15,915 nucleotides of DNA from Cyclobacteriaceae bacterium (lineage in GTDB: Bacteria; Bacteroidota; Bacteroidia; Cytophagales; Cyclobacteriaceae). Position numbers and translations under genes: made by a program. Location of the stretch: NCBI GenBank assembly GCA_013140395.1, contig JABFSY010000359.1:1-15915 (forward strand), written 5' to 3'. Below are positions 1-15,915 of the stretch, in pieces. Every line of letters starts with the position of its first letter. The stretch's first letter is position 1. Below the pieces are notes generated by a model. The model did not search any database, had not been told where the DNA came from, and saw nothing but the letters and a program-made list of their open reading frames with translations.

Positions 1-3000
1 GTACAAACCGGTGGAGCTGTTACTGTTGACGGAGGAGGTCCTGGCGGAACAGGTTTAGATTACTATGTATTTAGCTTAACCTATCCAGGCAATGTATTCC
101 AAATGTCTGGCGGAACGTTAACTGTGAGAGGTTCGCGTGCAGGTACGGCAGGCACCCGGGGCGGAATTTTTATTAATAGCGATCCCGCCAACGTAAGCGT
201 TACAGGCGGCACTATCATTGCAGAAATCAGTAATGGTAATCCTTATGTAGTAACTTCACGTGCTCCATTTTGGAACTTAACGCTTCGGAATACTTTTGAC
301 GCCACATTGCGCGATATAGATTTGCTTGGCGGAACAAGCGGACCGGCTGGAGGTGGTGCAAGTGAAATCACGTTGGCCGCACAAAATTTAGTAGTGAAGG
401 GCGGGCTTACAATTGAGTCATTTGTCAGACTTGACCACAATGGTAGGAACCTTAACATTGCCGGAAACCTTACCATCAATTTAAATGGAGATTTGATCTT
501 CGATCAAGTATTGGCCAATGGAAGAAGAAATACAACCACTTTAGATGGTACTGATAATTCCACTCTTTCATTCTTGAACCGTGTAGATGGAAATGGCGAA
601 CAGCGTTTTTGGAATTTAACCATTAACAAGCCTGCAGATAAAATAGTTAGCCTTGCGTCTGGGAAAACAGACTTAACAGGAAGCAACAACAATTTATTAA
701 GAATTGACGGGACATCATTTAGACTTTTTTCAGGCACTTTGGATCAAGGACTCCATAGTGTAAGAATGTTTTGTGATTCAGTTCTGAATTACCAAACGGT
801 AGGTGTATTTAATGGAGCTACAACTGCTGATGGTCCGGTAGCGAATGACCGTAACGATATGATTAAATTTAGAGATGACAATACACCGACTACGCTGGTC
901 ACAACTAGTAATGCTATTTTCGGTGTTGTCCGGTTAAACAGTGGAGACGACCCAATCCTGCTGAGTAGTAATTTAAGAATTCAATTCCTGCAATATCTCT
1001 ATGGAAAAATCAATTTAGGCACCTACCGATTGACGATAGACCAGATGGTGGGTGCATTAACAGGTGCTGCCTTGCCACCTAATGATAATCAAGCCGACTC
1101 GCTTGGGTTACAACTGAGAAGATTTAGTGTCGAAGACATGTTAGCGACATCTGGAAATTCCTCTGATGGAGGGCTTGCGCTTCGAATTTTTGCCAACGGG
1201 AACTATCGATTCCCATTAGGTATTGGAACAACAGCAAATGATGCCGCCAATACTTCAGGAACAGATAAGTACACGCCTGCGCTTGCAACCATAAGCGGTT
1301 TTGCCGATGATGGTTATATTATCATCAACCCAGTAAACCAGGTACTACAGACCACTAATTTGTCTGGTGGGCCTGATATTCTCAATTATTATTGGCGCGT
1401 ACGTTTTGAAGGCTTCACTACACTGCCAACGGTTAAGTACCAATTTACCTATGCTCAAAGTGATGTAGGAGGTACAGAAACCAACTATCTACCGGGTAAA
1501 GTTTTAGACATAAACCCCTTTACTCGATCATCCGAAGCAGCCAGTGTGAATACAACCGGAAATATCATCCATTTTGATGGCACAGGCACTGGATTTACGT
1601 TAGAACAAGCCAACTATACCGCAGGGGCAGCCGCCAGATTTACAGGTGCCCCAGAAGTTTATTATAGCCGGGGTTTTGGAGATGCTGCCGGCAGAGCTTG
1701 GACCAATGTTAACAACTGGACATTAGGTGCAAACGGAGCTTTTGGCGTCCATGATTCACGACAAGCAGCAGCAACAGATTTCCCACAGGCAGGTGATATT
1801 GCCATTGTTGGGTTTGTACCCTTTGGCGATCCCGCTGGCAACAACGGCCGGCCACATGGCGTAGCAATTAATAACAATGTCACTGTCGCAGAGCTTCGCT
1901 TTGAGCAAATGAAAGATATCTCAAACAATCCAACCGCTAGAATTTATGCTTTTAACTTTCAATTCAGGCCAACGGTTTGTATCAATAACTTAGGTACGCA
2001 AGGCCAACTGTTGGGAGCCAAAGTTGCTGGTGAAGGAATGTTTTGGATTCGAAGCACGGGTGGCAATTTATCCGATCCCACATTTGCTGGAGTAGATCTT
2101 GGAGCATTCAATCTTCAAGATTCATCGTACGTGGTATATGAGAATACGTTAGCGGCAGCTACTTATGTCAACACCCCTGCTTCATTTCCTAATCTGCTGA
2201 TGGCAACCGATGGTTGGGGTGCGGCCGATAAGTCTTCCACTATACCCAATAACATCACTGTTAATGGTGACTTAGAATTACTGGGTGACATCAACTTGGT
2301 TTTAAATACCGGGGCAACTGGAAATATAACCGTGAACAGAAACTTACGGTTTTACAGGTCAAATGCCAACGGAAACGACAGCGGTGGTGGTGGTGAACTT
2401 CGATTTGGAAATGTAGGTACGGCCAGAACGGTGACGGTATTGGGTAACTTGATTTTAGGAAATGGCTTTGATGCAATCGTTCGGGTATTGACCCCTGGAG
2501 TAACTCCGCTTAACCATACTTTCAATCTGTCTGGTAACTTCATACAAAACACAACAGCCGCAAATGGATTTAAAGCAGGAACGCTTTCAACACAGGATAG
2601 AATAAATGTTAATCTATTGGGCAACACTTCCATGACGATGACCAATGCAGGGGGTGATGCACCACAGTTTTATTCTTTGACTGTCAACAAGGGAACTTCA
2701 ACCGCTACGTTGGCCACTATCAACGCAAACATTACCATCAATGGGCCTACTAATCTTGCAACCAAATCACTAACACTTTCTAACGGTCTGTTGCGTTTGA
2801 ATAATAGTTCGATAGCTATCACGCTGTCAAGCGGTGGAGGAAATTTCCCGATACCCGGAACCGCAGGTCTTGAAGTTTCTGCCGGCACTGTCTCTCTTAC
2901 AGGATCCGATACTGGATTATTGTTAGATGGTTTGTTGCGCGTGAGTGGCGGAACTGTCAACATCGATGATGCCGTAGGTAATGGAAACAACTTCATTGAA

Positions 3001-6000
3001 TACTCAGCATCTGGCAATGCCATTATTGAGGTGAGCGCTGGGTCACTCACAGTGGGTTCACAGATTAGAAGAAGCTTGACTAGCACGGCTGGCATTTTAA
3101 ATTACAGACAAACCGGTGGGTCGGTAACAGTTGGCAGGAGGGCGGCACCCACTACCAACCGCGGTGTTTTTGAAGTGGTTAATGCAGGCAGCGAATTTGT
3201 TCACTCCGGTGGAGCCACATTGACTATAGTGAGGGGCATCAATAGTCCTACTGTGCCGTCTATTCTTATTTCTCCTCAAACTCCAGCTGTTTTGAATTCA
3301 ACATCCAATATCATAATTGGTTCTGCGAATACACCAGCGGGAGTTAACGGGCAAAACATTGGGATCACCACCAATAGTAGTCTAGGAAATATAACCATTG
3401 ACAACAGTAGCGGTAATGCGCCAAGGGCTTTGATTTACTCGTTGCCGCTACTGGTAGATGGAACCTTTACCATTGGTAATGGGACAACATTTAACGCTCA
3501 AAGCCTCGGGTTAGAATTAAAGGGTGATATGGTAGTAAACGGAACTTTTCTACCTACCGGAAACACTACTACTTTCTCTGCTGCTGGGGCACAAAGCCTC
3601 TCTGGAACAGGTGCAAAAAACTTCTTCAATTTAACGAAGAACAATACCGGCACTTTAGGCCTTACCACAGTCATAAATGTTAGCAATGATTTGCGTGTTG
3701 AACAAGGTGTGCTTGCCGATAATGGCAATGCTATAAACTTACAAGGTAATGCCTATTTTGGTACGGCACCTGCTACCAGTGGAACCCACACTAGTTCAGG
3801 AGGCGGAAACGGCCTTGTTTTTATGGGCTCGGGGCAGCAACAACTGTTTGGATTACGAACAGACGGAGTAGCTGATTTAGGAACAGTTACAATCGATAAC
3901 CTGAGTGGTGTAATCATCCCTGACAATTCCGATAAACTCACGTTGAACACGGGGCTAAGGCTATCAAGAGGTGTCTTTGATATCGGAGGATCTCTCCTCA
4001 CATTAGGCATAAACACTGCCATTGAAGAAGTCAATACTTTCTCTGCGAATAACATGATACAGACCAATAGTTCGTTCACTGACAATGGTGTGAAAAAGGT
4101 ATTCCCGGCATTGAGCACAACTAGCTTTATATTCCCAGTAGGTCAAGCCCTTTACACACCTGCGACTTTCGATTTTGCAGATCTTGGCCCCGGCTCTGGA
4201 ACTGGAACTACTTCTCCTAGTATAACAGTTCGCCCTGCCAACGAGCGGCAGCCAATCATTCAAGAAGATATAGAATCTGGGCTCTGTATTGCTCAAATTA
4301 ATGATCAAAACAATGTGCTGCAGTACCACTGGATCATTACCGCTGAAAATGCTACAAATCTTGAATCTAACGTAGTGTTGCAATACCAGCAAAGCTTAGT
4401 TGCGCTGGCGAATGGATTAACCGAGGCTGATTATATTGCTGCAAGAATCAGAACGGGTGATGCCACTGTATTCAAGTTTCCAGATGCAGCGGCTGTGGAT
4501 GAACTGAATAATCGAATTAATTTCTCTTTTAACAATGTATCAACCGCAGAAATTTCGGGCGAATACCTGGCGGGCGTAGATTGTGCCATACCCAACAACA
4601 TTATTACATATGTTACAAAAGGGGGAGGTGTAGGAAATGGAGATGTGACTAGTTCATCCATTTATGTTGGCGACCCTTCTCCTTTAACCCTTTCGGGATC
4701 CATTATTAGAGTATCAGCTGGTGACGTTGTCACCATTCCTGGCACAACCGACAATGTTATACTCTATCGGGCAGAAATAAATGGTACGCTCGATATCAAG
4801 AGTGGATCCATTGGTCACCGACTTGGAACAGTGACCGGAACAGGAACCTTAAGCTTTGAAGTAAATGCCCCTGATGTTAGTGCTGTATTTCCTGCTGGTT
4901 TTTACACCGATTTCTTGAGTTGCTCTGGTGGCGGCCTTCAGTATTCTGGCAATACAAACTATGAAGTGCTTGGGGGAATTACTTCGTTACGTAGACTAAC
5001 ATTGGCAGGTACCGGAAATAGAATTCTTGGCAACAATGATATTCTGATTTGTGAAGACCTTACAATTAACGGTTCATCATTCCAAAATACAAATAATCGA
5101 AACATAACGATCCAAAGAGATGCTTTAGTGAATGGTGGCTCCTTCTTAACTGGCGGTGGTACGGTATTGGTGGATCGTGATTTAAATGTTGTAGGCGGTA
5201 CTTTTGATGGCCAAAGTACTGGAAACAAAACAGTGGGGAGAGATCTAGTGGTTTCTTCAGGAAGTTTCACAGCGGGAAGCGGTGGTAACTTGACAATACT
5301 GCGAAATCTAAATTATACGGGAGGTGCATTTAGTGGCGGTACAAGCGCGCATCGTACCATTTTCCAAGGCGCGGTTGCGCAGAGCACGAGTGGCAATTTT
5401 TCTCTCAATCAGTTAGAAATAAACAATGGACTTGGCCTAACACTCGGAGGTAGTGTTACTATCAATAGTGAATTAGTTCTTACCAATGGAAATATTACGC
5501 CAGGTGCCACCACTTTTTTGATTGGGTCAAGCGCTTTGAGTACGCCTGCTGAAGGAAGGGCAAATTCATTTGTTAACGGAAAATTGTTTAAAGCACTTGG
5601 TGCAGGAGGGGCGCCCACCTCTGCCAACACATTTACCTTCCCAATTGGAAGTGGCTCTCGCTGGAGATCCGGTTCTGTGAGTGTAGCCAGTGGAACCGCA
5701 GCCACGTGGGATATGCAATATATAATTGGAAATGCAGATGCCTTGGAGGCCTCGATAACTAATATGACACCCATTGCTCCGGTTGTTCGCCTATCTACAA
5801 TTGAATATTGGAAAGTCTCCGATGGTTCTGTAGCAGCAACAGGAAGGACAGCTACGATAGGATTAAGCTGGGGCATCGAGAGCGATGTGAGCACATCGAA
5901 CGTAGAACGTCAAGATTTACGTGTAATGCAATGGGTAGGCGCGCCTACGAACCAATGGCAAAATAGAGGAGGTGTGAACTTCAGTGGAGGTAATACACAA

Positions 6001-6642
6001 AGTCGAGGTACTTTTAACGCATCATCAACCATATCCTTTAGCGAACAGATTGTGACGTTGGGATCAGTAGATACTCAAAATCCTTTACCTGTCGAACTTG
6101 TAAAATTTGAAGGCAGGATTGACGGATCGATTGCAAGCTTGAATTGGAAGACCGCCTCAGAAATAAATAACGATTATTTTGAGATACAACGATCGCCAGA
6201 CGGGTTGGAATTTGTTGAAGTAGGAAAAGTGAATGGAAACGGAACAACCAATTTGCCTTCCGAGTATTTTTTCGAGGATAGGAACTTGTTGAAAGGCAAT
6301 AATTACTATCGTTTGAAGCAATTCGATTTTGATGGAAAATCGTCTTATAGCGATGTGATCGTGTTGGATTACGATGGTACCACACCATTGAACATATTCT
6401 TGTATCCCAATCCAACCAACACTCAGAATGTTAACCTGGAGTTAATCAATCCTACCTCGGAGAATGTGAGCATTCGAATTTTGGATATCATTGGGCGGCC
6501 ATCGTTTCAGGCAATAGTAAAGGCTGAAGAAATAGAATCGAATATTTCTTTAAAGACCGAGGAACTGAAGTCGGGCGTATATGTGGTGGAGGTGACACAA
6601 GGCACACAACGGGTGACCAAGCGATTGGTAATTCAAAATTAA
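1..6642 (+). CDS. Giant beta-rich surface/secreted protein with T9SS C-terminal sorting domain (5' end outside window)
   Basis: The frame is open from base 1 (no stop, no convincing start), so the N-terminus and signal peptide lie upstream. At least 2213 residues are present and the TAA stop is at 6640-6642. The sequence is rich in Gly, Asn, Thr and Ser, with alternating hydrophobic residues and recurring 'NLTI-N...L.V.NG.L.L.NG' phrases, as expected of parallel beta-helix or stacked beta-strand proteins. A block of 20-22-residue rungs lies at 5041-5340. From 6085 a 'NPLPVEL' Fn3-like module begins, with SEINNDYFEIQRS and NNYYRLKQFDFDG motifs, as often precedes Bacteroidota sorting domains. 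From about 6385 the T9SS type A sorting domain follows (FLYPNPT, then RILDIIGR, then SGVYVVEV, ending KRLVIQN). By family knowledge such proteins cross the outer membrane by type IX secretion and are anchored to or released from the cell surface. An adhesin or matrix role is inference; no enzyme domain is visible. The final hairpin suggests it ends its transcription unit. Confidence 0.93.
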   Translation, partial: VQTGGAVTVDGGGPGGTGLDYYVFSLTYPGNVFQMSGGTLTVRGSRAGTAGTRGGIFINSDPANVSVTGGTIIAEISNGNPYVVTSRAPFWNLTLRNTFDATLRDIDLLGGTSGPAGGGASEITLAAQNLVVKGGLTIESFVRLDHNGRNLNIAGNLTINLNGDLIFDQVLANGRRNTTTLDGTDNSTLSFLNRVDGNGEQRFWNLTINKPADKIVSLASGKTDLTGSNNNLLRIDGTSFRLFSGTLDQGLHSVRMFCDSVLNYQTVGVFNGATTADGPVANDRNDMIKFRDDNTPTTLVTTSNAIFGVVRLNSGDDPILLSSNLRIQFLQYLYGKINLGTYRLTIDQMVGALTGAALPPNDNQADSLGLQLRRFSVEDMLATSGNSSDGGLALRIFANGNYRFPLGIGTTANDAANTSGTDKYTPALATISGFADDGYIIINPVNQVLQTTNLSGGPDILNYYWRVRFEGFTTLPTVKYQFTYAQSDVGGTETNYLPGKVLDINPFTRSSEAASVNTTGNIIHFDGTGTGFTLEQANYTAGAAARFTGAPEVYYSRGFGDAAGRAWTNVNNWTLGANGAFGVHDSRQAAATDFPQAGDIAIVGFVPFGDPAGNNGRPHGVAINNNVTVAELRFEQMKDISNNPTARIYAFNFQFRPTVCINNLGTQGQLLGAKVAGEGMFWIRSTGGNLSDPTFAGVDLGAFNLQDSSYVVYENTLAAATYVNTPASFPNLLMATDGWGAADKSSTIPNNITVNGDLELLGDINLVLNTGATGNITVNRNLRFYRSNANGNDSGGGGELRFGNVGTARTVTVLGNLILGNGFDAIVRVLTPGVTPLNHTFNLSGNFIQNTTAANGFKAGTLSTQDRINVNLLGNTSMTMTNAGGDAPQFYSLTVNKGTSTATLATINANITINGPTNLATKSLTLSNGLLRLNNSSIAITLSSGGGNFPIPGTAGLEVSAGTVSLTGSDTGLLLDGLLRVSGGTVNIDDAVGNGNNFIEYSASGNAIIEVSAGSLTVGSQIRRSLTSTAGILNYRQTGGSVTVGRRAAPTTNRGVFEVVNAGSEFVHSGGATLTIVRGINSPTVPSILISPQTPAVLNSTSNIIIGSANTPAGVNGQNIGITTNSSLGNITIDNSSGNAPRALIYSLPLLVDGTFTIGNGTTFNAQSLGLELKGDMVVNGTFLPTGNTTTFSAAGAQSLSGTGAKNFFNLTKNNTGTLGLTTVINVSNDLRVEQGVLADNGNAINLQGNAYFGTAPATSGTHTSSGGGNGLVFMGSGQQQLFGLRTDGVADLGTVTIDNLSGVIIPDNSDKLTLNTGLRLSRGVFDIGGSLLTLGINTAIEEVNTFSANNMIQTNSSFTDNGVKKVFPALSTTSFIFPVGQALYTPATFDFADLGPGSGTGTTSPSITVRPANERQPIIQEDIESGLCIAQINDQNNVLQYHWIITAENATNLESNVVLQYQQSLVALANGLTEADYIAARIRTGDATVFKFPDAAAVDELNNRINFSFNNVSTAEISGEYLAGVDCAIPNNIITYVTKGGGVGNGDVTSSSIYVGDPSPLTLSGSIIRVSAGDVVTIPGTTDNVILYRAEINGTLDIKSGSIGHRLGTVTGTGTLSFEVNAPDVSAVFPAGFYTDFLSCSGGGLQYSGNTNYEVLGGITSLRRLTLAGTGNRILGNNDILICEDLTINGSSFQNTNNRNITIQRDALVNGGSFLTGGGTVLVDRDLNVVGGTFDGQSTGNKTVGRDLVVSSGSFTAGSGGNLTILRNLNYTGGAFSGGTSAHRTIFQGAVAQSTSGNFSLNQLEINNGLGLTLGGSVTINSELVLTNGNITPGATTFLIGSSALSTPAEGRANSFVNGKLFKALGAGGAPTSANTFTFPIGSGSRWRSGSVSVASGTAATWDMQYIIGNADALEASITNMTPIAPVVRLSTIEYWKVSDGSVAATGRTATIGLSWGIESDVSTSNVERQDLRVMQWVGAPTNQWQNRGGVNFSGGNTQSRGTFNASSTISFSEQIVTLGSVDTQNPLPVELVKFEGRIDGSIASLNWKTASEINNDYFEIQRSPDGLEFVEVGKVNGNGTTNLPSEYFFEDRNLLKGNNYYRLKQFDFDGKSSYSDVIVLDYDGTTPLNIFLYPNPTNTQNVNLELINPTSENVSIRILDIIGRPSFQAIVKAEEIESNISLKTEELKSGVYVVEVTQGTQRVTKRLVIQN
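5041..5340 (+). repeat. Five tandem diverged 20-22-residue beta-helix rungs within the giant surface protein
   Basis: The translated segment breaks into successive units such as ITIQRDALVNGGSFLTGGGT, VLVDRDLNVVGGTFDGQST and TVGRDLVVSSGSFTAGS, flanked by weaker copies starting ILICEDLTINGSSF and TILRNLNYTGGAF. The shared pattern is hydrophobic-x-hydrophobic-x-R-D/N-L-x-V-x-G-G-S/T-F-x-x-G. The period is close to 60 bp, but the DNA copies are diverged, so this is protein-level rather than recent DNA-level repetition. The period fits one turn of a right-handed parallel beta-helix. Confidence 0.75.
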
Positions 6643-6706: not shown

Positions 6707-7834
6707 TCAGTTTGATTTCGATGTCAATAGTCTTTTTGAATAGTAAAGAAGCGGCACCCCATAAACAGCGATCATGGCATAGGCCATCATTTCATACCCT
6801 TTGGCCACCAAGTCAATGATGCCCACTTGTGCTAGTAAGAGTGACGCGACTAATGCGACAGTAGAAATGTAAGCCTTGTGAATTTTCTGCATGGGCTGGG
6901 CACTTCGCTCCATCACTTCATTTTCTATGCGATGGATAAACGCGTGAATCATGCCGGTAGCTGTTTCAACTAATGTCCAACCCACCACGATGCCAAAGAT
7001 GACGATCATGATGGTGTGAAAAGGCTCCAGCATTTTAAGCCAAGGGACTGTAGAAGCCAGCACGTCTTGATTTGGATAGTAGGATAACAAAGCAAAGTAG
7101 GTGAGGAACCATGGGATCGTCATCAACGCACCCGAAATAAATCCTGCTGCTATACTTTCTTTTCGAGAGCGAATGTTTCGATAGGTAAAGAACGAAGCAG
7201 GATAAACAGCTAAGTTATAACCAACATACAGTATTCCGGTCCAAACAAGCAGGCCGAAGTGTGGCGCATCAGGCAGAAAGCTGGTATCCCAGTTGGAAAA
7301 GACTGCTGCAATGGCAGAACCCCTGGTGGCAAAAACAGCGATAGAAAAAATGATGTAGGCACTGAAGAGAGCAATCGTTCCAATCGTTTCCAGTTTGGTG
7401 ATCACCTCATCTCCTTTGTAGTTAAGAAATCCAACCAATACCACAATTAACATCACACCCACCCATTGATTAAAGCCCAGTGTGTTGTTTAATATTTCTC
7501 CTGCAGCTGCTGCCATCACTGCGATGATCAAAATCGCCAATAACAAGTAAGCGATTTCGTAGGCAACCCATCCTCTGCCAATCATCTTTTTTAGCAGCGA
7601 CTTGTAATCATATACTTCCCATTGGCGGCAAGCCTCCATGGAAAGGATGGAAATCAACGAGAATCCTAAAAAGATGGCGAGACCACTAATCCAACCGCTA
7701 GCTCCAAACTTTCCTCCATATTCTACAATCTCACGACCTGTGGCATAGCCACCGCCAATCAAAACGGATTGTAAAATGATACCGGGCAGCAGGATGCGTT
7801 TGATCCGAGAAGCAGGTTGTTGAAGATTTTTCAT
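6707..7834 (-). CDS. YkvI-family polytopic membrane protein (LeuT-fold-like transporter relative, substrate unknown)
   Basis: A hydrophobic protein of 375 residues with about ten predicted membrane segments. The first contains GGGYATGREIVEYGGKFG, the glycine-rich opening I recognise from the YkvI-like family (COG3814), which is distantly related to amino-acid/cation symporters with a broken first helix. No substrate is established. I start it at the ATG at 7834 (MKNLQQPAS) rather than the TTG at 7873, which would overlap the stop of the upstream gene. With the ATG, the spacing to that gene is 31 bp. It is co-directional with and downstream of the two ada-like genes and is probably cotranscribed with them. 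Whether it functions in the alkylation response is not shown by the sequence. The C-terminus is short and basic (YYSKRLLTSKSN). The terminator at 6667-6688 follows. Confidence 0.75.
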   Translation of the reverse strand: MKNLQQPASRIKRILLPGIILQSVLIGGGYATGREIVEYGGKFGASGWISGLAIFLGFSLISILSMEACRQWEVYDYKSLLKKMIGRGWVAYEIAYLLLAILIIAVMAAAAGEILNNTLGFNQWVGVMLIVVLVGFLNYKGDEVITKLETIGTIALFSAYIIFSIAVFATRGSAIAAVFSNWDTSFLPDAPHFGLLVWTGILYVGYNLAVYPASFFTYRNIRSRKESIAAGFISGALMTIPWFLTYFALLSYYPNQDVLASTVPWLKMLEPFHTIMIVIFGIVVGWTLVETATGMIHAFIHRIENEVMERSAQPMQKIHKAYISTVALVASLLLAQVGIIDLVAKGYEMMAYAMIAVYGVPLLYYSKRLLTSKSN

Positions 7835-7865
7835 AGTAAGATGAATCGTCTTCAAGATAGGAAGA

Positions 7866-8726
7866 TTAGTCAATCTTGCCTTTGCTCATTTTTGCCATCT
7901 CCCAGCCAACGATACTTTTCTTGCGGGTAGCATTCCAGCGATACTCTCCAAGAATTCCGTCCTTTCGAATAACGCGATGGCAGGGAATTAGATACGCGAT
8001 GTGATTAGAGCCAACAGCAGAACCCACTGCTTGCAGGGCTTTTGGATTTTGTATTTTCTCGGCTATCCGTTGATAGGTGGTTACGCTCCCGATAGGCAAT
8101 CTCAATAGTGCCTCCCATACTTTCACTTGAAAGTTGGTGCCCTTGACAAACACGTGTAATTTTTTCGATGGAGATTTTTTGCCAAAAATAGAATCGATGA
8201 AACTGGCCGTTAGTTCTTGGTCATGATGAAAAATGGAATGATCCCAATGTTCTTTCATTTTTTCAAGTTCGTAGTTGGGATCTTTATCGGTAGTGATAAA
8301 AGACATCCAGCAAACGCCTCGTTCGGTAACACCAAGTAGAGCAAGACCAAAGGGGGTTTCGTGGAAACCATACTCTATTCGTATGCCCGCACCACGCTGT
8401 TTGTACTCCTGCGGTGTAACGGCCTCCAATGTGGTAAACAAATCGTATACACGCGACTGACTCGAAAGCCCAGCTGCTTCTGCTGCATCGACTAGATTTT
8501 TGGTTTGCGCTAATTTGCTTTTTAGAAAATCAACTGTCAGGAATTGGAGAAAGCGTTTCGGGCTTATCCCCGCCCACTCCGTAAAGATTCGTTGAAAATG
8601 AAATGGAGAGAGGTGTACTTTTTCCGCCACCTCGTCCAACTCTGGCTGGCGTTGAAAGTTTTTCTCCAGGTATTGAATGGCCTGCTCTATTCGCAGGTAA
8701 TTGATTTTGTCTTCGATCACCATCAT
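7866..8726 (-). CDS. Ada-like AraC-type HTH / methylated-DNA-[protein]-cysteine S-methyltransferase
   Basis: A 286-residue protein counted from the ATG at 8726 (MMVIEDKINY); the frame also runs up to a TTG at 8780. Domains in order: an AraC-type helix-turn-helix at about residues 10-105 (ELDEVAEKVHLSPFHFQRIF, then SPKRFLQF, then PQEYK), a ferredoxin-like methyltransferase N-subdomain, and the C-terminal MGMT domain with NFQVKVWEALLRLPIGSVTTY, the Asn hinge GSNHIAYLIPCHRV with the methyl-acceptor Cys, and EYRWNATRKK. This is Ada without its N-terminal zinc domain, which is encoded by the gene just upstream, 22 bp away in another frame. By family knowledge the Cys in PCHRV irreversibly accepts methyl groups from O6-methylguanine or O4-methylthymine, while the HTH part binds promoter DNA. 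Two-domain HTH-MGMT proteins of this kind are common, so this is not a degraded gene. Confidence 0.9.
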   Translation of the reverse strand: MMVIEDKINYLRIEQAIQYLEKNFQRQPELDEVAEKVHLSPFHFQRIFTEWAGISPKRFLQFLTVDFLKSKLAQTKNLVDAAEAAGLSSQSRVYDLFTTLEAVTPQEYKQRGAGIRIEYGFHETPFGLALLGVTERGVCWMSFITTDKDPNYELEKMKEHWDHSIFHHDQELTASFIDSIFGKKSPSKKLHVFVKGTNFQVKVWEALLRLPIGSVTTYQRIAEKIQNPKALQAVGSAVGSNHIAYLIPCHRVIRKDGILGEYRWNATRKKSIVGWEMAKMSKGKID

Positions 8727-8748
8727 AAAGATATTGTTTTTTGATAGA

Positions 8749-9081
8749 TCAAATTTGGTGTTTCGGTCTTTCGAATTCAACCCGCTTCTTGCGGAATTTC
8801 CATTGCAAATACGCAGTTTTCATACAATGCCCACATGGTCGGTAACCTAAATGGATCGCCTCTTTTTGACTTCCAAAGAATACACGATTCATTTTTTTCA
8901 TCCGTTTGCCCGAACGACAGTCGAGCGAACCATAGATTTTAAGCTTCTTGTTGCCTGCTAAGATTATTTTTTTACTTTTTAAGAGCCTGGCCAACTCACT
9001 CGTTGTTAGTTTTTCATGTGCAATCATATACAAATGAGAAAGATACGTTTCGTCCCATCGGGTCAATGTCAAATCAATCAT
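8749..9081 (-). CDS. Stand-alone Ada-type metal-binding domain protein (putative methylphosphotriester sensor)
   Basis: A 110-residue protein from the ATG at 9081. The region KIYGSLDCRSGKRM, followed by NRVFFGSQKEAIHLGYRPCGHC, aligns with the Ada N-terminal zinc domain (E. coli Ada Cys38, Cys42, Cys69, Cys72). C55 matches the methyl-accepting Cys38, and C83 and C86 match Cys69 and Cys72. The Cys42 position is Lys59, and three residues are deleted after it, so only three cysteines exist in the whole protein. About 40 residues precede the domain and a basic tail follows. I recall similar short 'Ada metal-binding domain' proteins in Bacteroidota with the same KSGKRM-like variant, so the change looks family-wide rather than a local mutation. 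It is the first gene of the presumed unit with the HTH-MGMT gene and faces the alkA-like gene across a 99-bp gap. A sensing role is inference. Confidence 0.8.
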   Translation of the reverse strand: MIDLTLTRWDETYLSHLYMIAHEKLTTSELARLLKSKKIILAGNKKLKIYGSLDCRSGKRMKKMNRVFFGSQKEAIHLGYRPCGHCMKTAYLQWKFRKKRVEFERPKHQI

Positions 9082-9180: not shown

Positions 9181-10068
9181 ATGGAGTCTTTTCATATTCC
9201 GGTTTTCGATGAATTCAGTTTTAAAAGATCAGTTGAGTTTCTTCAACGTTCGCCAAAAGAGCTTTTACATTTTGTAGATGATTATCACGTTTCAAAAGTC
9301 ATTGAAATCGGATCAAAAAGAATTGTATTTGAACTGACCCAAAAGAAATCTAACCAACTACAAGTAAGAGTAGTAAGTGGCTTACCACTGCAGCAATCTG
9401 AAAAGGCACAACTTATTCTTTTTATCAAAGAATGGTTTGACTTAGATGCAGATCTGAGGCCATTTTATGCCCTCGTTAAGGATGATAAGTTATTGGGTCC
9501 ATTAGTAAAGGAATATTTTGGCTATCGCATCATCGGGCAGCCTGACTTATTTGAGTCACTGGTATGGGCAGTGCTTGGGCAACAGATTAATCTTCAGTTT
9601 GCGTACACCTTAAAACAACGATTTGTAGAACAATTTGGCGAAAAGCATACAGTAGGAGATAAGGTGTACTATTTGTTCCCCACACCAAAGGTAGTTTCAA
9701 CCCTTTCCGATGAACACCTTTTGCCACTTCAATTCTCTCGGCAAAAGAGTAAGTACGTAGTGTTAATTGCGCAAGCTTTCTTGAGTGGGAGTATTTCGAA
9801 AGAGAAGTTAAAGGACTTACCCTTTCAAGAGGCCAAAGAGAAATTGATGAATATTAAAGGAGTTGGAAACTGGACTGCTAATTATGCGCTGATGAAAACA
9901 TTTAGATATCCCGAGTCATTTCCGTTAGAAGACGCGGGTGTTCACAATGCCATTAAAAATTTAAAAAAAATGAAAGCGAAGCCAACCTTGGAACAAGTCA
10001 AACGAATTTTTAAAAAGTACAAAGGGTGGGAGGCGTACGCAACACTTTATTTGTGGAAGAGTCTTTGA
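9181..10068 (+). CDS. alkA: DNA-3-methyladenine glycosylase II, AlkA-like (HhH-GPD superfamily)
   Basis: A 295-residue protein from the ATG at 9181, close to the 282 residues of E. coli AlkA. After an N-terminal AlkA-N-like beta region (about residues 1-85), the HhH-GPD domain starts with PDLFESLVWAVLGQQINLQF. The helix-hairpin-helix LMNIKGVGNWTANYALMKTF spans residues 222-241, and the catalytic Asp is D251 in FPLEDAGV, at the place of AlkA Asp238. By family knowledge it flips out and removes alkylated purines such as 3-methyladenine to start base-excision repair. It is transcribed away from the split ada genes, so coordinated induction by alkylation damage is a reasonable inference. It converges on the histidine kinase gene with 17 bp between stops and no clear terminator in that gap. 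Confidence 0.9.
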   Translation: MESFHIPVFDEFSFKRSVEFLQRSPKELLHFVDDYHVSKVIEIGSKRIVFELTQKKSNQLQVRVVSGLPLQQSEKAQLILFIKEWFDLDADLRPFYALVKDDKLLGPLVKEYFGYRIIGQPDLFESLVWAVLGQQINLQFAYTLKQRFVEQFGEKHTVGDKVYYLFPTPKVVSTLSDEHLLPLQFSRQKSKYVVLIAQAFLSGSISKEKLKDLPFQEAKEKLMNIKGVGNWTANYALMKTFRYPESFPLEDAGVHNAIKNLKKMKAKPTLEQVKRIFKKYKGWEAYATLYLWKSL

Positions 10069-13861: not shown

Positions 13862-14776
13862 TTAATTGGAGTCTTTAAATATGATTTTGCCCATTGAAAC
13901 ATCCAGATCAAAATTCAGAGCGTTTTTGGCATTCTTAGAATAGCTTGCGTTGGCAAATTTGTTGTTCCCCACTTTTTTAAGGCTCTTAGATAGATTTAAG
14001 CTGCAAAGCCAGGAGTCATTTATTTTAACCACTACGGGCACTTCGTCATCGGGTAACTGGATTGTTAGGTTGCCAGCACCAACACTTCCAATAATGTGAT
14101 TGCTAGTTGTGGGTTTGTCAGAAAAATCAAGGTACATATTTCCAAAACCCACGTTGGCTACTACTACTTTAGACTTTGCCATATTGATATGTTGGGCATT
14201 TACTGTTCCCATGTCCACTTTAATGAAAAAAGTATCCATAGTTACTTTGTTTTCAATTCCTGTCCCGTAGGTGATGTTTACGTCCGCGCTACCCGTATTG
14301 ATTTTTAGTTTCTCTACCGAGAGCCCGGATAGGTCAATGTTTGCATTCCCCAATCCATAGTCTAGGTTAAGGGAATAAGGAGTGTTTACCGTGAGATATA
14401 CCTTCCAAAATTTCTCTGATGGCCTGTCGTCACTTCCAAAAACCTGATAAGATATCTTTTTGCCAACGCCTCGTTGACTTTCTTGTTCCAAGGCCAACTT
14501 GATCATGCTCGTTGTGCCCTTTATCTCATTACTGAATGAATGAGAATATTGCTCTAAATCCTGATTACTGTATATATTAAGAAAGTCAGAACTTTGGCTA
14601 GGCCGAATAAAGCAGTTCCCTGTTTTGGCTTTCAATGATAGGTTTACCTTGTTGCACACCTCGTCTTTCTCGACAGAAAATTGCTTCTTGATTTGGCCCC
14701 AACTGACCAAATGTGCGCCTATGCCTATCCAAATTAAAACGGTCTTTAACACGCTTCCTTTTAACTTTAATGCCAC
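13862..14776 (-). CDS. Secreted beta-rich protein of unknown function (DUF4097/adhesin-head-like)
   Basis: A 304-residue protein from a GTG at 14776; the only nearby upstream ATG is followed at once by a stop. An N-terminal signal peptide is visible: basic residues, the hydrophobic stretch VLIWIGIGAHLVSW, then a likely cut at SWG/Q. The mature part has repeated short beta strands with Asn, Asp and Gly turns (LDYGLGNANIDLSGL, then LKINTGSADVNITYG, then VGAGNLTIQLP), a pattern like the single-stranded beta solenoid or 'toastrack' domains of DUF4097-type proteins. I do not recognise a named family with confidence. There is no sorting domain or lipobox, so the periplasm is the most likely place. 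It is co-directional with and 128 bp upstream of the ABC ATPase gene. A functional tie to the exporter or kinase is possible but unproven. Confidence 0.7.
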   Translation of the reverse strand: MALKLKGSVLKTVLIWIGIGAHLVSWGQIKKQFSVEKDEVCNKVNLSLKAKTGNCFIRPSQSSDFLNIYSNQDLEQYSHSFSNEIKGTTSMIKLALEQESQRGVGKKISYQVFGSDDRPSEKFWKVYLTVNTPYSLNLDYGLGNANIDLSGLSVEKLKINTGSADVNITYGTGIENKVTMDTFFIKVDMGTVNAQHINMAKSKVVVANVGFGNMYLDFSDKPTTSNHIIGSVGAGNLTIQLPDDEVPVVVKINDSWLCSLNLSKSLKKVGNNKFANASYSKNAKNALNFDLDVSMGKIIFKDSN

Positions 14777-14874: not shown

Positions 14875-15915
14875 TTATCCGAAATACTCTTTCATGCGCT
14901 CGAAGAATCCCTTTTCGTTGGCATCTGGACTAGGTTGAAAATTGGCAGAGCTGCGGAGGCTTTCCAATTTGGCCTTTTCCTCACTACTCACCTTTTTTGG
15001 TGTCCAAACATTGATGTAAATAAGCTGATCACCAGTACCATACCCGTTGATGTCTTTCAGCCCCTTTCCACGTAAGCGAAGGATCTTCCCGCTCTGTGTC
15101 CCCGGCTCTATTTTTATACGGACTTTGCCTCCGATAGAAGGCACTTCCACAGACGTACCAAGGGTTGCATCAATGAAGCTTATGTGTAGATCGTATACTA
15201 AATTGGTGCCATCTCGCTTCAGTTCCTTATCCTCTGTTTCCTCGATCAAAATCAACAAATCCCCCGGTACTCCTCCACCGGGTGCTTCATTGCCTTTTCC
15301 CGACATGGAAAGTTGCATACCATCGCTGACTCCTGCAGGAATTTTGACGGTAATGAGATCTTCTTTGGAAACCAACCCTGAGCTGTCAACTCCGGGAGGG
15401 CGTTTGTCAAGGGTTTGGCCTGCGCCATTGCAAGTAGGACAGGTACTTGACGACACCATTTGCCCAAGCATCGTGTTTACTACTTTTCTCACCTGGCCGG
15501 TGCCTTGGCAAGTATTACAATTTTTGAAAGTGACTCCCTCGGCATGAATGAGCCGGTTCACCTTAATTTTCTTTTCTACTCCATTGGCTATCTCCTCCAG
15601 CGTAAGCTTCAGCTTAATGCGCAAGTTTGAGCCTTTCCGTTGCCGTGATCTTCCCCCTCCACCAAAAAAGCTATCGAATGGGCTTCCACCACTTCCACCT
15701 CCTCCAAAAATATCTCCAAACTGACTGAAGATATCTTCCATGTTCATCTCGTGCGAGCTATAGCCACCTCCACCTCCACCTGGTCTGTTGTGACCGAAGC
15801 GATCGTACTGTGCACGTTTCGTTTCATCGCTAAGCACTTCATGGGCTTCGGCAGCTTCTTTAAATTTTTCTTCGGCCGCCTTGTCGCCTTGGTTTTTATC
15901 GGGGTGAAATTGAAT
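14875..15915 (-). CDS. dnaJ: Chaperone DnaJ (Hsp40), 5' end outside window, with only two zinc-binding repeats
   Basis: The frame stays open to the window edge, giving 346 residues. The GTG at 15837 is internal, since the 26 codons before it encode the J-domain with the HPD motif ([11 protein letters not shown]), essential for stimulating DnaK's ATPase. A Gly/Phe linker with [16 protein letters not shown] follows. The zinc region holds only CNTCQGTG (15519-15496) and CPTCNGAG (15441-15418), where DnaJ normally has four CxxCxGxG repeats. The first-repeat site reads [10 protein letters not shown] and the fourth reads [14 protein letters not shown], both without cysteine. The substrate-binding C-terminal domains are intact ([20 protein letters not shown], then [18 protein letters not shown], ending MKEYFG). 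Full J, G/F and C-terminal domains argue for a working class I-like chaperone with half a zinc domain. Translation runs straight through with no frameshift. Confidence 0.95.

Follow-up and report, generated by a model that had tools for sequence, protein, structure and literature searches.

The DnaJ of a Cyclobacteriaceae bacterium keeps two of the four CXXCXGXG motifs that characterize class A DnaJs, and the same reduced form is found in the grpE-linked DnaJ of much of the class Bacteroidia. Judging from sequence, we put the probability at roughly 0.8 that this protein is a housekeeping DnaK co-chaperone with a half-size zinc domain, that it holds one zinc at site II, and that loss of site I has been recurrent and tolerated in Bacteroidia.

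The window, the whole 15,915-nucleotide stretch of DNA that was analysed, is one entire contig (C119) of an 81%-complete MAG. Because the contig ends inside dnaJ, the first 29 residues of the protein are missing, as judged against a named complete copy (L038) that is 99% identical to the window dnaJ and in which the J domain and the G/F region are complete. In the window protein the J domain, DnaJ_CXXCXGXG, and DnaJ_C are all three above their Pfam cut-offs (Table 1), and a Gly/Phe-rich stretch, the G/F region, can be seen by eye after the J domain. Against TIGR02349, the NCBIfam DnaJ equivalog with a cut-off of 377.2 bits, the 5'-truncated window sequence scores 309.3. Full-length two-motif proteins fall on both sides of this cut-off, with L038 (366.2), L174 (365.7), and P0241 (357.1) under it and L146 (381.8), P0139 (386.5), and L104 (381.9) over it, and the subfamily model NF008035 (338) is passed by 6 of 6 full-length two-motif proteins. 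Adjoining the 3' side of dnaJ is a 304-aa frame without a Pfam match (13862-14776, minus strand), and the same neighbour is present in L038.

Table 1. Features of the truncated dnaJ gene, in window coordinates, ordered from the 5' end of the gene after the full frame.
Feature	Position	Strand	Detail
dnaJ coding frame	14875..15915	-	346 aa; 5' end cut by contig end; stop 14875-14877
HPDKN	15892-15906	-	HPD opens the frame
J domain, C-terminal part (model positions 27-63)	15802..15912	-	Pfam PF00226 above cut-off
DnaJ_C substrate-binding domains (PF01556)	14998..15624	-	Pfam, residues 98-306; zinc domain inserted within
Lead-in strand to zinc domain, EKKIKVNR	15553..15576	-	
Left arm, site of lost repeat 1	15520..15552	-	Net 9-residue deletion
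CXXCXGXG motif 2, CNTCQGTG (predicted zinc site II)	15496..15519	-	HMMER alignments; C and G invariant in 129/129
Hairpin joining motifs 2 and 3	15442..15495	-	18 residues in two- and four-motif forms
CXXCXGXG motif 3, CPTCNGAG (predicted zinc site II)	15418..15441	-	HMMER alignments; C and G invariant in 129/129
Right arm	15346..15417	-	As long as the repeat-4 arm in most four-motif DnaJs; RCxxCxGxG replaced by RPxGxDxxGL, without the cysteines

Other parts of the window hold genes of different character. Pfam matches outline a split Ada-type alkylation response (7866-9081, minus strand, and 9181-10068, plus strand). In it a 110-aa Ada_Zn_binding frame overlaps by 32 bp a frame made up of AraC-HTH and O6-methylguanine methyltransferase, and a divergent AlkA-like HhH-GPD glycosylase, also recognised by Pfam, lies beside this split pair. 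The window begins with a 5'-open 2213-aa frame (1-6642, plus strand) that is rich in G, N, T, and S by eye and ends in Por_Secre_tail, a type IX secretion sorting domain, beyond which it has no Pfam match at E 0.001. A 388-aa hydrophobic protein without a Pfam match (6707-7873, minus strand) is, by eye, probably a membrane transporter.

The zinc domain of the window DnaJ contains two CXXCXGXG motifs with four cysteines, and PF00684 matches it above cut-off over model positions 12-55 of 65 only. HMMER alignment places the two motifs on motifs 2 and 3 of DnaJ 6jzb and of Ydj1 1nlt, and the best of three weak domain matches to E. coli 1exk (E 0.37) gives the same pair. In Ydj1, ZBDI involves Cys143/Cys201 and ZBDII involves Cys162/Cys185, according to a passage of PMC6584821, and the reading of motifs 2 and 3 as the pair that would form zinc site II is supported. 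The first-pass annotation had taken the two motifs to be the second and third, with repeats 1 and 4 lost as a pair. Frame reading and the alignments to 6jzb and 1nlt bear this out, coordinates included: the remaining repeats are neither 1 and 2 nor 3 and 4, and the paired loss is seen in 129 of 129 aligned two-motif rows. What that annotation did not separate is the fate of the two repeats, as repeat 1 has undergone a net deletion of 9 residues and repeat 4 a replacement of the same length. Slippage between repeats 1 and 2 was considered as the deletion mechanism and rejected, as it would take about 17 residues and not 9.

Alignment rows were called two-motif when the segment EKKIKV...IPAG had 4 Cys and 82 residues and four-motif when it had 8 Cys; of 202 loci, 17 that were partial or second-best and 4 without a DnaJ match were left out. 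The 213 aligned rows comprise 129 two-motif rows, 124 of them different (five identical pairs come from genomes met twice), and 84 four-motif rows of 90-93 residues. None falls outside both classes, and no intermediate form between the two was found among the 213. The segment before motif 2 has 19 residues in all 129 two-motif rows vs 27-28 in the 84 four-motif rows, the hairpin has 18 residues in 213 of 213, and the distance from motif 3 to IPAG is 29 residues in every two-motif row and in 81 of the 84 four-motif rows, the remaining 3 having 31. Not one of the 129 two-motif rows departs from the four Cys and four Gly of the motifs, and none has a Cys in its arms. From first to last, the cysteines of the window zinc domain span 30 residues. 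Outside the zinc domain, 121 of the 129 two-motif proteins have no Cys, the window's included as far as it is read.

Partial loci fit one form or the other: L067, L025, L028, and L029 are two-motif, and L124 and L125 (genomes G075 and G060) hold repeats 3 and 4. Three four-motif DnaJs, L206 and L208 (family f9, genus g42) and L085 (Thermoflexibacter ruber), have a 93-residue segment with two extra residues around repeat 4 and make up a third length class. Genome G060 carries dnaJ as two adjacent pieces (L132/L125), the second with repeats 3 and 4, and the dnaJ of G018 (L028) has an in-frame TAG; each may be an assembly error or a real break.

The two-motif form extends well beyond the genus and family of the window. 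Sampling was confined to Bacteroidota apart from control genomes. About 84 of 296 sampled genomes of class Bacteroidia, the window's own included, lie within the two-motif PF00684 E-value band of 1e-13 to 1e-8, which was hand-counted and is an imperfect proxy for the two-motif state; four genomes of family f62 (G302, G367, G418, and G441) and G396 also lie in the band and are excluded from the 84. Sequences were read in 38 band genomes besides the window's own and gave 35 two-motif and 3 four-motif forms, the latter all from f62, so that among the 83 counted genomes besides the window's own the 35 that were read are two-motif without exception. Genomes G459, G467, and G503 show weak PF00684 matches only. 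In a sample of the phylum, a short PF00684 match (10/12 to 55/57) was the best match in 12 of 19 genomes of class Bacteroidia and in 0 of 61 sampled genomes outside that class. Additional PF00684 matches (about 16-51 of 65) in frames of about 950-1040 aa are presumably UvrA and not DnaJ.

Among the best 80 of 583 named loci, two-motif forms come from Cyclobacteriaceae, Fulvivirga, Chryseolinea, Chryseotalea, Dawidia, Roseivirga, Marivirga, Nafulsella, Algoriphagus, and one Saprospiraceae, and four-motif forms from Pedobacter, Parapedobacter, Pontibacter, Adhaeribacter, Rhodocytophaga, and Thermoflexibacter. Database proteins extend the range: 240 of the 240 best matches listed to two-motif queries have two motifs, with Wandonia haliotis, Vicingus serpentipes, and Crocinitomicaceae among the organisms, and a query from family f72 gave 119 two-motif proteins among its 120 best matches listed (one was not matched by the pattern), the organisms printed being Flavobacterium. 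These lists were fetched with two-motif queries, and the resulting 359 of 360 listed proteins with two motifs are not a frequency. Whether the loss is clade-wide had been raised in the first-pass annotation: the form reaches beyond the family, and it is scattered. The two-motif DnaJ appears to be a stable working variant and not a lone oddity.

Gene context and copy number bear on the role of the protein, which is the main, housekeeping, grpE-linked DnaJ of the DnaK system. At all 80 named loci, whether two- or four-motif, grpE adjoins dnaJ upstream on the same strand; this order lies outside the span of the window, which ends inside dnaJ. The gene order in L038 is adk-obg-grpE-dnaJ, with names given by reading. 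A full-length dnaK is present in 8 of 8 relatives searched, and its absence from the window's own 81%-complete MAG is put down to incompleteness. Further dnaJ and cbpA copies were counted, as proposed at first pass, in 18 family genomes that are at least 91% complete, a non-random set in which six genomes had been picked for a single match and two (G019 and G024) for a second; 15 of the 18 have a single DnaJ_C protein. The three exceptions (G019, G024, and G129) have a second DnaJ_C protein in a 306-311 aa frame that is read as CbpA-like. A second DnaJ_C-type match occurs in 5 of 24 genomes of the genus and, outside the window's order, in some two-motif genomes, G522 and G538 for example. A full-size DnaJ hidden elsewhere was considered and rejected, as the only other J-domain match in the window's own incomplete genome is a 155-aa frame (L002) and 15 of the 18 relatives have one DnaJ_C protein.

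The history of the two states was followed on trees built from the DnaJ core with the zinc domain cut out. Excluded were the window copies (L001/L003), three loci that are not DnaJ (L140-L142), and the distant four-motif sequences of f62 (L172/L201/L202); L206 and L222 are absent from the 113-row tree. A quick tree of 174 rows (129 two-motif and 45 four-motif) has 12 state changes, of which at least 3 are forced by starred branches. A careful tree of 76 rows has 10 changes, at least 4 of them forced, or 15 losses if loss is irreversible, and it rejects a grouping of the two-motif rows into one clade (lnL difference 105, AU p = 0.00234). With more four-motif relatives, a careful 113-row tree, whose bootstrap is not fully settled, has 12 changes, at least 8 of them forced, or 14 events if loss is irreversible; the quick tree of the same 113 rows has 13 changes with at least 3 forced. 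The forced minimum depends on the tree (3, 4, 3, and 8), and so does the placement of f72 (Flavobacterium), which groups with the window's order in the 76-row tree and with other orders in the 174-row and 113-row quick trees. Independently of the trees, the sequences read show both states inside single genome families (f32, f53, f9, and f2). The changes are counted on the gene's own tree, and whole-gene transfer therefore does not explain the scatter. An ancient paralogue pair sorted by loss is not favoured, as the core tree mixes the states within f32 and f53.

Two accounts of this scatter are nearly even. It is quite possible, at a little under even odds, that the one-zinc arms have a single origin and were afterwards passed from one DnaJ gene to another through intragenic recombination or gene conversion, with four-motif arms moving back and the core left where it was. 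In all 15 maximal two-motif clades of the 76-row tree, 3-6 of six derived arm residues are present, vs 0 in 60, 1 in 19, and 2 in 5 of the 84 four-motif rows, although the six were chosen after viewing the two-motif consensus, and three of these residues can also be found in 7-11 of the 84 four-motif rows. The identical lengths of the 129 two-motif rows, the lack of intermediates among all 213, and the rejection of one two-motif clade on the core tree are consistent with such movement as well. The hairpin between the arms mostly tracks taxonomy and not state, by eye, so that both arms would have to be swapped around it, and no donor-recipient tract was identified. Four rows of family f9 from genus g51 of the window's order (L114, L115, L116, and L119) have a hairpin that reads MQT, as in other orders, with LGRMQT in three of them as in f72/Flavobacterium, and this hairpin could be an import and a possible trace of exchange.

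Alternatively, site I may have disappeared in many separate events, every one an identical in-frame deletion of a CXXCXGXG unit together with decay of repeat 4, with structure forcing the end state; we consider this a plausible account that also stays below even odds. Irreversible loss needs the 14 events of the 113-row tree or the 15 of the 76-row tree, both states occur within f32, f53, f9, and f2, and the hairpin is mostly lineage-specific, all of which fits repeated loss, and the A and G of the conserved A-E-G segment are readable as remnants of the G-A-x-G that follows repeat 1 in the four-motif DnaJs. For 14 events, however, the shared derived residues, the unvarying deletion of 9 residues, and the lack of any intermediate in 213 rows would be much coincidence. 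A stronger version of the exchange account, which we regard as doubtful, makes site I a switchable part, with at least 8 state changes in the dnaJ of Bacteroidia, always between two exact designs, by exchange of the arms around a mostly resident hairpin and including returns to the two-zinc state.

From the remaining ligands we infer exactly one zinc centre, in which the four cysteines would hold one zinc per protomer at site II. It is improbable that the four cysteines instead form disulfides or a redox switch, as proposed for the ER protein DNAJB11, although the ER proteins likewise have four cysteines over 30 residues (main text of PMC12799103). All 129 two-motif rows have the complete CXXCXGXG with every glycine, the sequence usual for a zinc site, which counts against this reading. 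Bacterial DnaJ works in the cytosol, and this too counts against disulfides. Less probable still is a site I rebuilt from acidic residues (E13 with D57 and D64), in which case two metals would be bound. Position 57 is Asp or Glu in 108 of the 129 two-motif rows, position 64 in 117, and position 13 in 87, but position 13 is Pro in 23 rows, the arms are without Cys, and there is no conserved His, with His anywhere in the left and right arms in 18 and 17 rows, respectively. The first-pass annotation had allowed for replacement ligands at centre I, and the 129 rows contain no conserved His or Cys that could serve. Sequencing error or gene decay, which could be suspected from the MAG source and the position of the gene at a contig end, has a negligible chance of being the cause of the two-motif form, as 129 aligned rows and 359 of 360 listed database proteins share this form, and the concordance of these rows rules out the sequencing error for which the first-pass annotation had left room.

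With one zinc at site II as the preferred reading, the conserved arms suggest how the rest of the domain could be organized. The former repeat-1 and repeat-4 arms may pair as a zinc-free stem, bearing the conserved A-E-G and R-P-x-G-x-D-x-x-G-L segments, that still carries the central hairpin and presents it. Transfer of clients to DnaK would be retained and thiol chemistry at site II may persist, while stand-alone anti-aggregation (holdase) activity, linked to site I by E. coli DnaJ mutants, would be reduced or relocated and is probably weaker. The first-pass annotation had read the paired loss as functional and not as random decay, and the conserved cysteines and arms speak for that; its description of the protein as an intermediate between class I and class II has to be given up, as the form is a stable grpE-linked DnaJ of much of Bacteroidia and nothing in this analysis ties it to class B.

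This expectation leans on mutants, in that the ligands of the natural protein match those of a Salmonella site-I mutant and would by that analogy give one zinc at site II, a preserved hand-off to DnaK, and a reduced holdase. Passages of PMC8262869 describe Salmonella DnaJ with its four site-I cysteines changed to Ser as binding about one zinc, keeping oxidoreductase activity and DksA binding, and having wild-type peroxide resistance. For Ydj1, growth in heat needs site II and not site I, and disruption of site I in DnaJ abolishes the protection of luciferase from aggregation (both in the parts of PMC6584821 that report Fan 2005 and Linke 2003). According to a section of PMC4428491, DnaJ cannot do without site I in binding substrate or without site II in its interaction with DnaK. 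Other results from these sources complicate the picture. Purified Ydj1 mutants of either site are defective in folding aid (a passage of PMC6584821) and the repeat-4 cysteine pair of DnaJ contributes to substrate binding (PMC4428491, same section), so that loss of site I may cost more than the holdase. Deletion of the whole cysteine-rich region had no dramatic effect as reported in PMC4428491, again in the section concerned, and retention of site II therefore need not mean much. It is also possible that the thiol chemistry does not carry over, as Cys268 matters in Salmonella DnaJ (a passage of PMC8262869) and a counterpart is impossible in the 121 of 129 proteins without a further Cys.

What is known of how the two DnaJ zinc sites differ in role comes from point mutants. 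The two-motif form amounts to a natural site-I knock-out in the grpE-linked DnaJs of a large group that includes Flavobacterium and that, in the family tested, usually has no second DnaJ_C protein, and the role of site I becomes testable through natural one- and two-zinc DnaJs. Specialists would not expect a grpE-linked DnaJ of Flavobacterium to have, by its sequence, one zinc site, or this state to have flipped repeatedly, and the ER precedent, together with mutants in which site I is dispensable in some settings, lessens the surprise. Sorting of class A and class B by eight cysteines would misfile the dnaJ of many Bacteroidota.

Earlier surveys come close to this form. In the main text of PMC12799103, a survey of 1,420 sequences, the one bacterial group besides the CbpA clade said to have lost the finger is the Actinobacteria, with complete loss, and neither "bacteroid" nor "cytophag" occurs in that main text. 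A previous large alignment retained class A sequences with at least two motifs (methods passage of PMC5542770), and two-motif DnaJs may sit unremarked in it. Among the best-ranked open-access titles listed, we recognised none that describes a two-motif DnaJ in Bacteroidota. DnaJ-like segments with two CXXCXGXG motifs are also known from the DNA polymerases of HMO-2011-type phages and from FIP, a plant thylakoid protein that is without a J domain (PMC9038755, PMC5915565).

With class A DnaJs such as E. coli DnaJ and Ydj1 the form has in common a J domain, a G/F region, DnaJ_C domains into which the zinc domain is inserted, the gene order grpE-dnaJ, and motifs 2 and 3 with their hairpin, but it has two CXXCXGXG motifs instead of four, 4 Cys instead of 8, and no zinc site I. 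The window DnaJ therefore lies outside class A as defined by four CXXCXGXG motifs (8 Cys), and it also lies outside canonical class B, which has no zinc finger, as it has half a zinc domain and matches PF00684 above cut-off. The strict definition in the main text of PMC12799103 would place it in class B-canonical as "truncated ZnF", though gene order and core are those of dnaJ. DnaJ2B and CbpA share the J domain and DnaJ_C, and actinobacterial DnaJ2B is likewise a product of zinc-finger loss from class A, but these proteins are without the zinc finger entirely and DnaJ2B comes from a DnaJ duplicate (PMC12799103, main text). The nearest precedent found is the truncated finger of ER DNAJB11/ERdj3 and atDjA8, which also has 4 and not 8 cysteines over about 30 residues and is predicted to keep the hairpin (PMC12799103, main text), and the Bacteroidia form is a bacterial parallel to it. 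The same main text gives DNAJB11 and atDjA8 as thought to descend from a eukaryotic ER duplicate of a class A gene and as possibly disulfide-stabilised, whereas the Bacteroidia form is a grpE-linked bacterial gene that keeps the motif glycines, and its bacterial gene order makes descent from the eukaryotic ER clade implausible. The engineered Salmonella DnaJ delta-Zn1 (C147S C150S C200S C203S), which a passage of PMC8262869 describes as binding about one zinc, resembles the natural protein in that site I is gone and site II is kept. Delta-Zn1 is a laboratory mutant, whereas in the Bacteroidia form the whole arm has been rebuilt and conserved.
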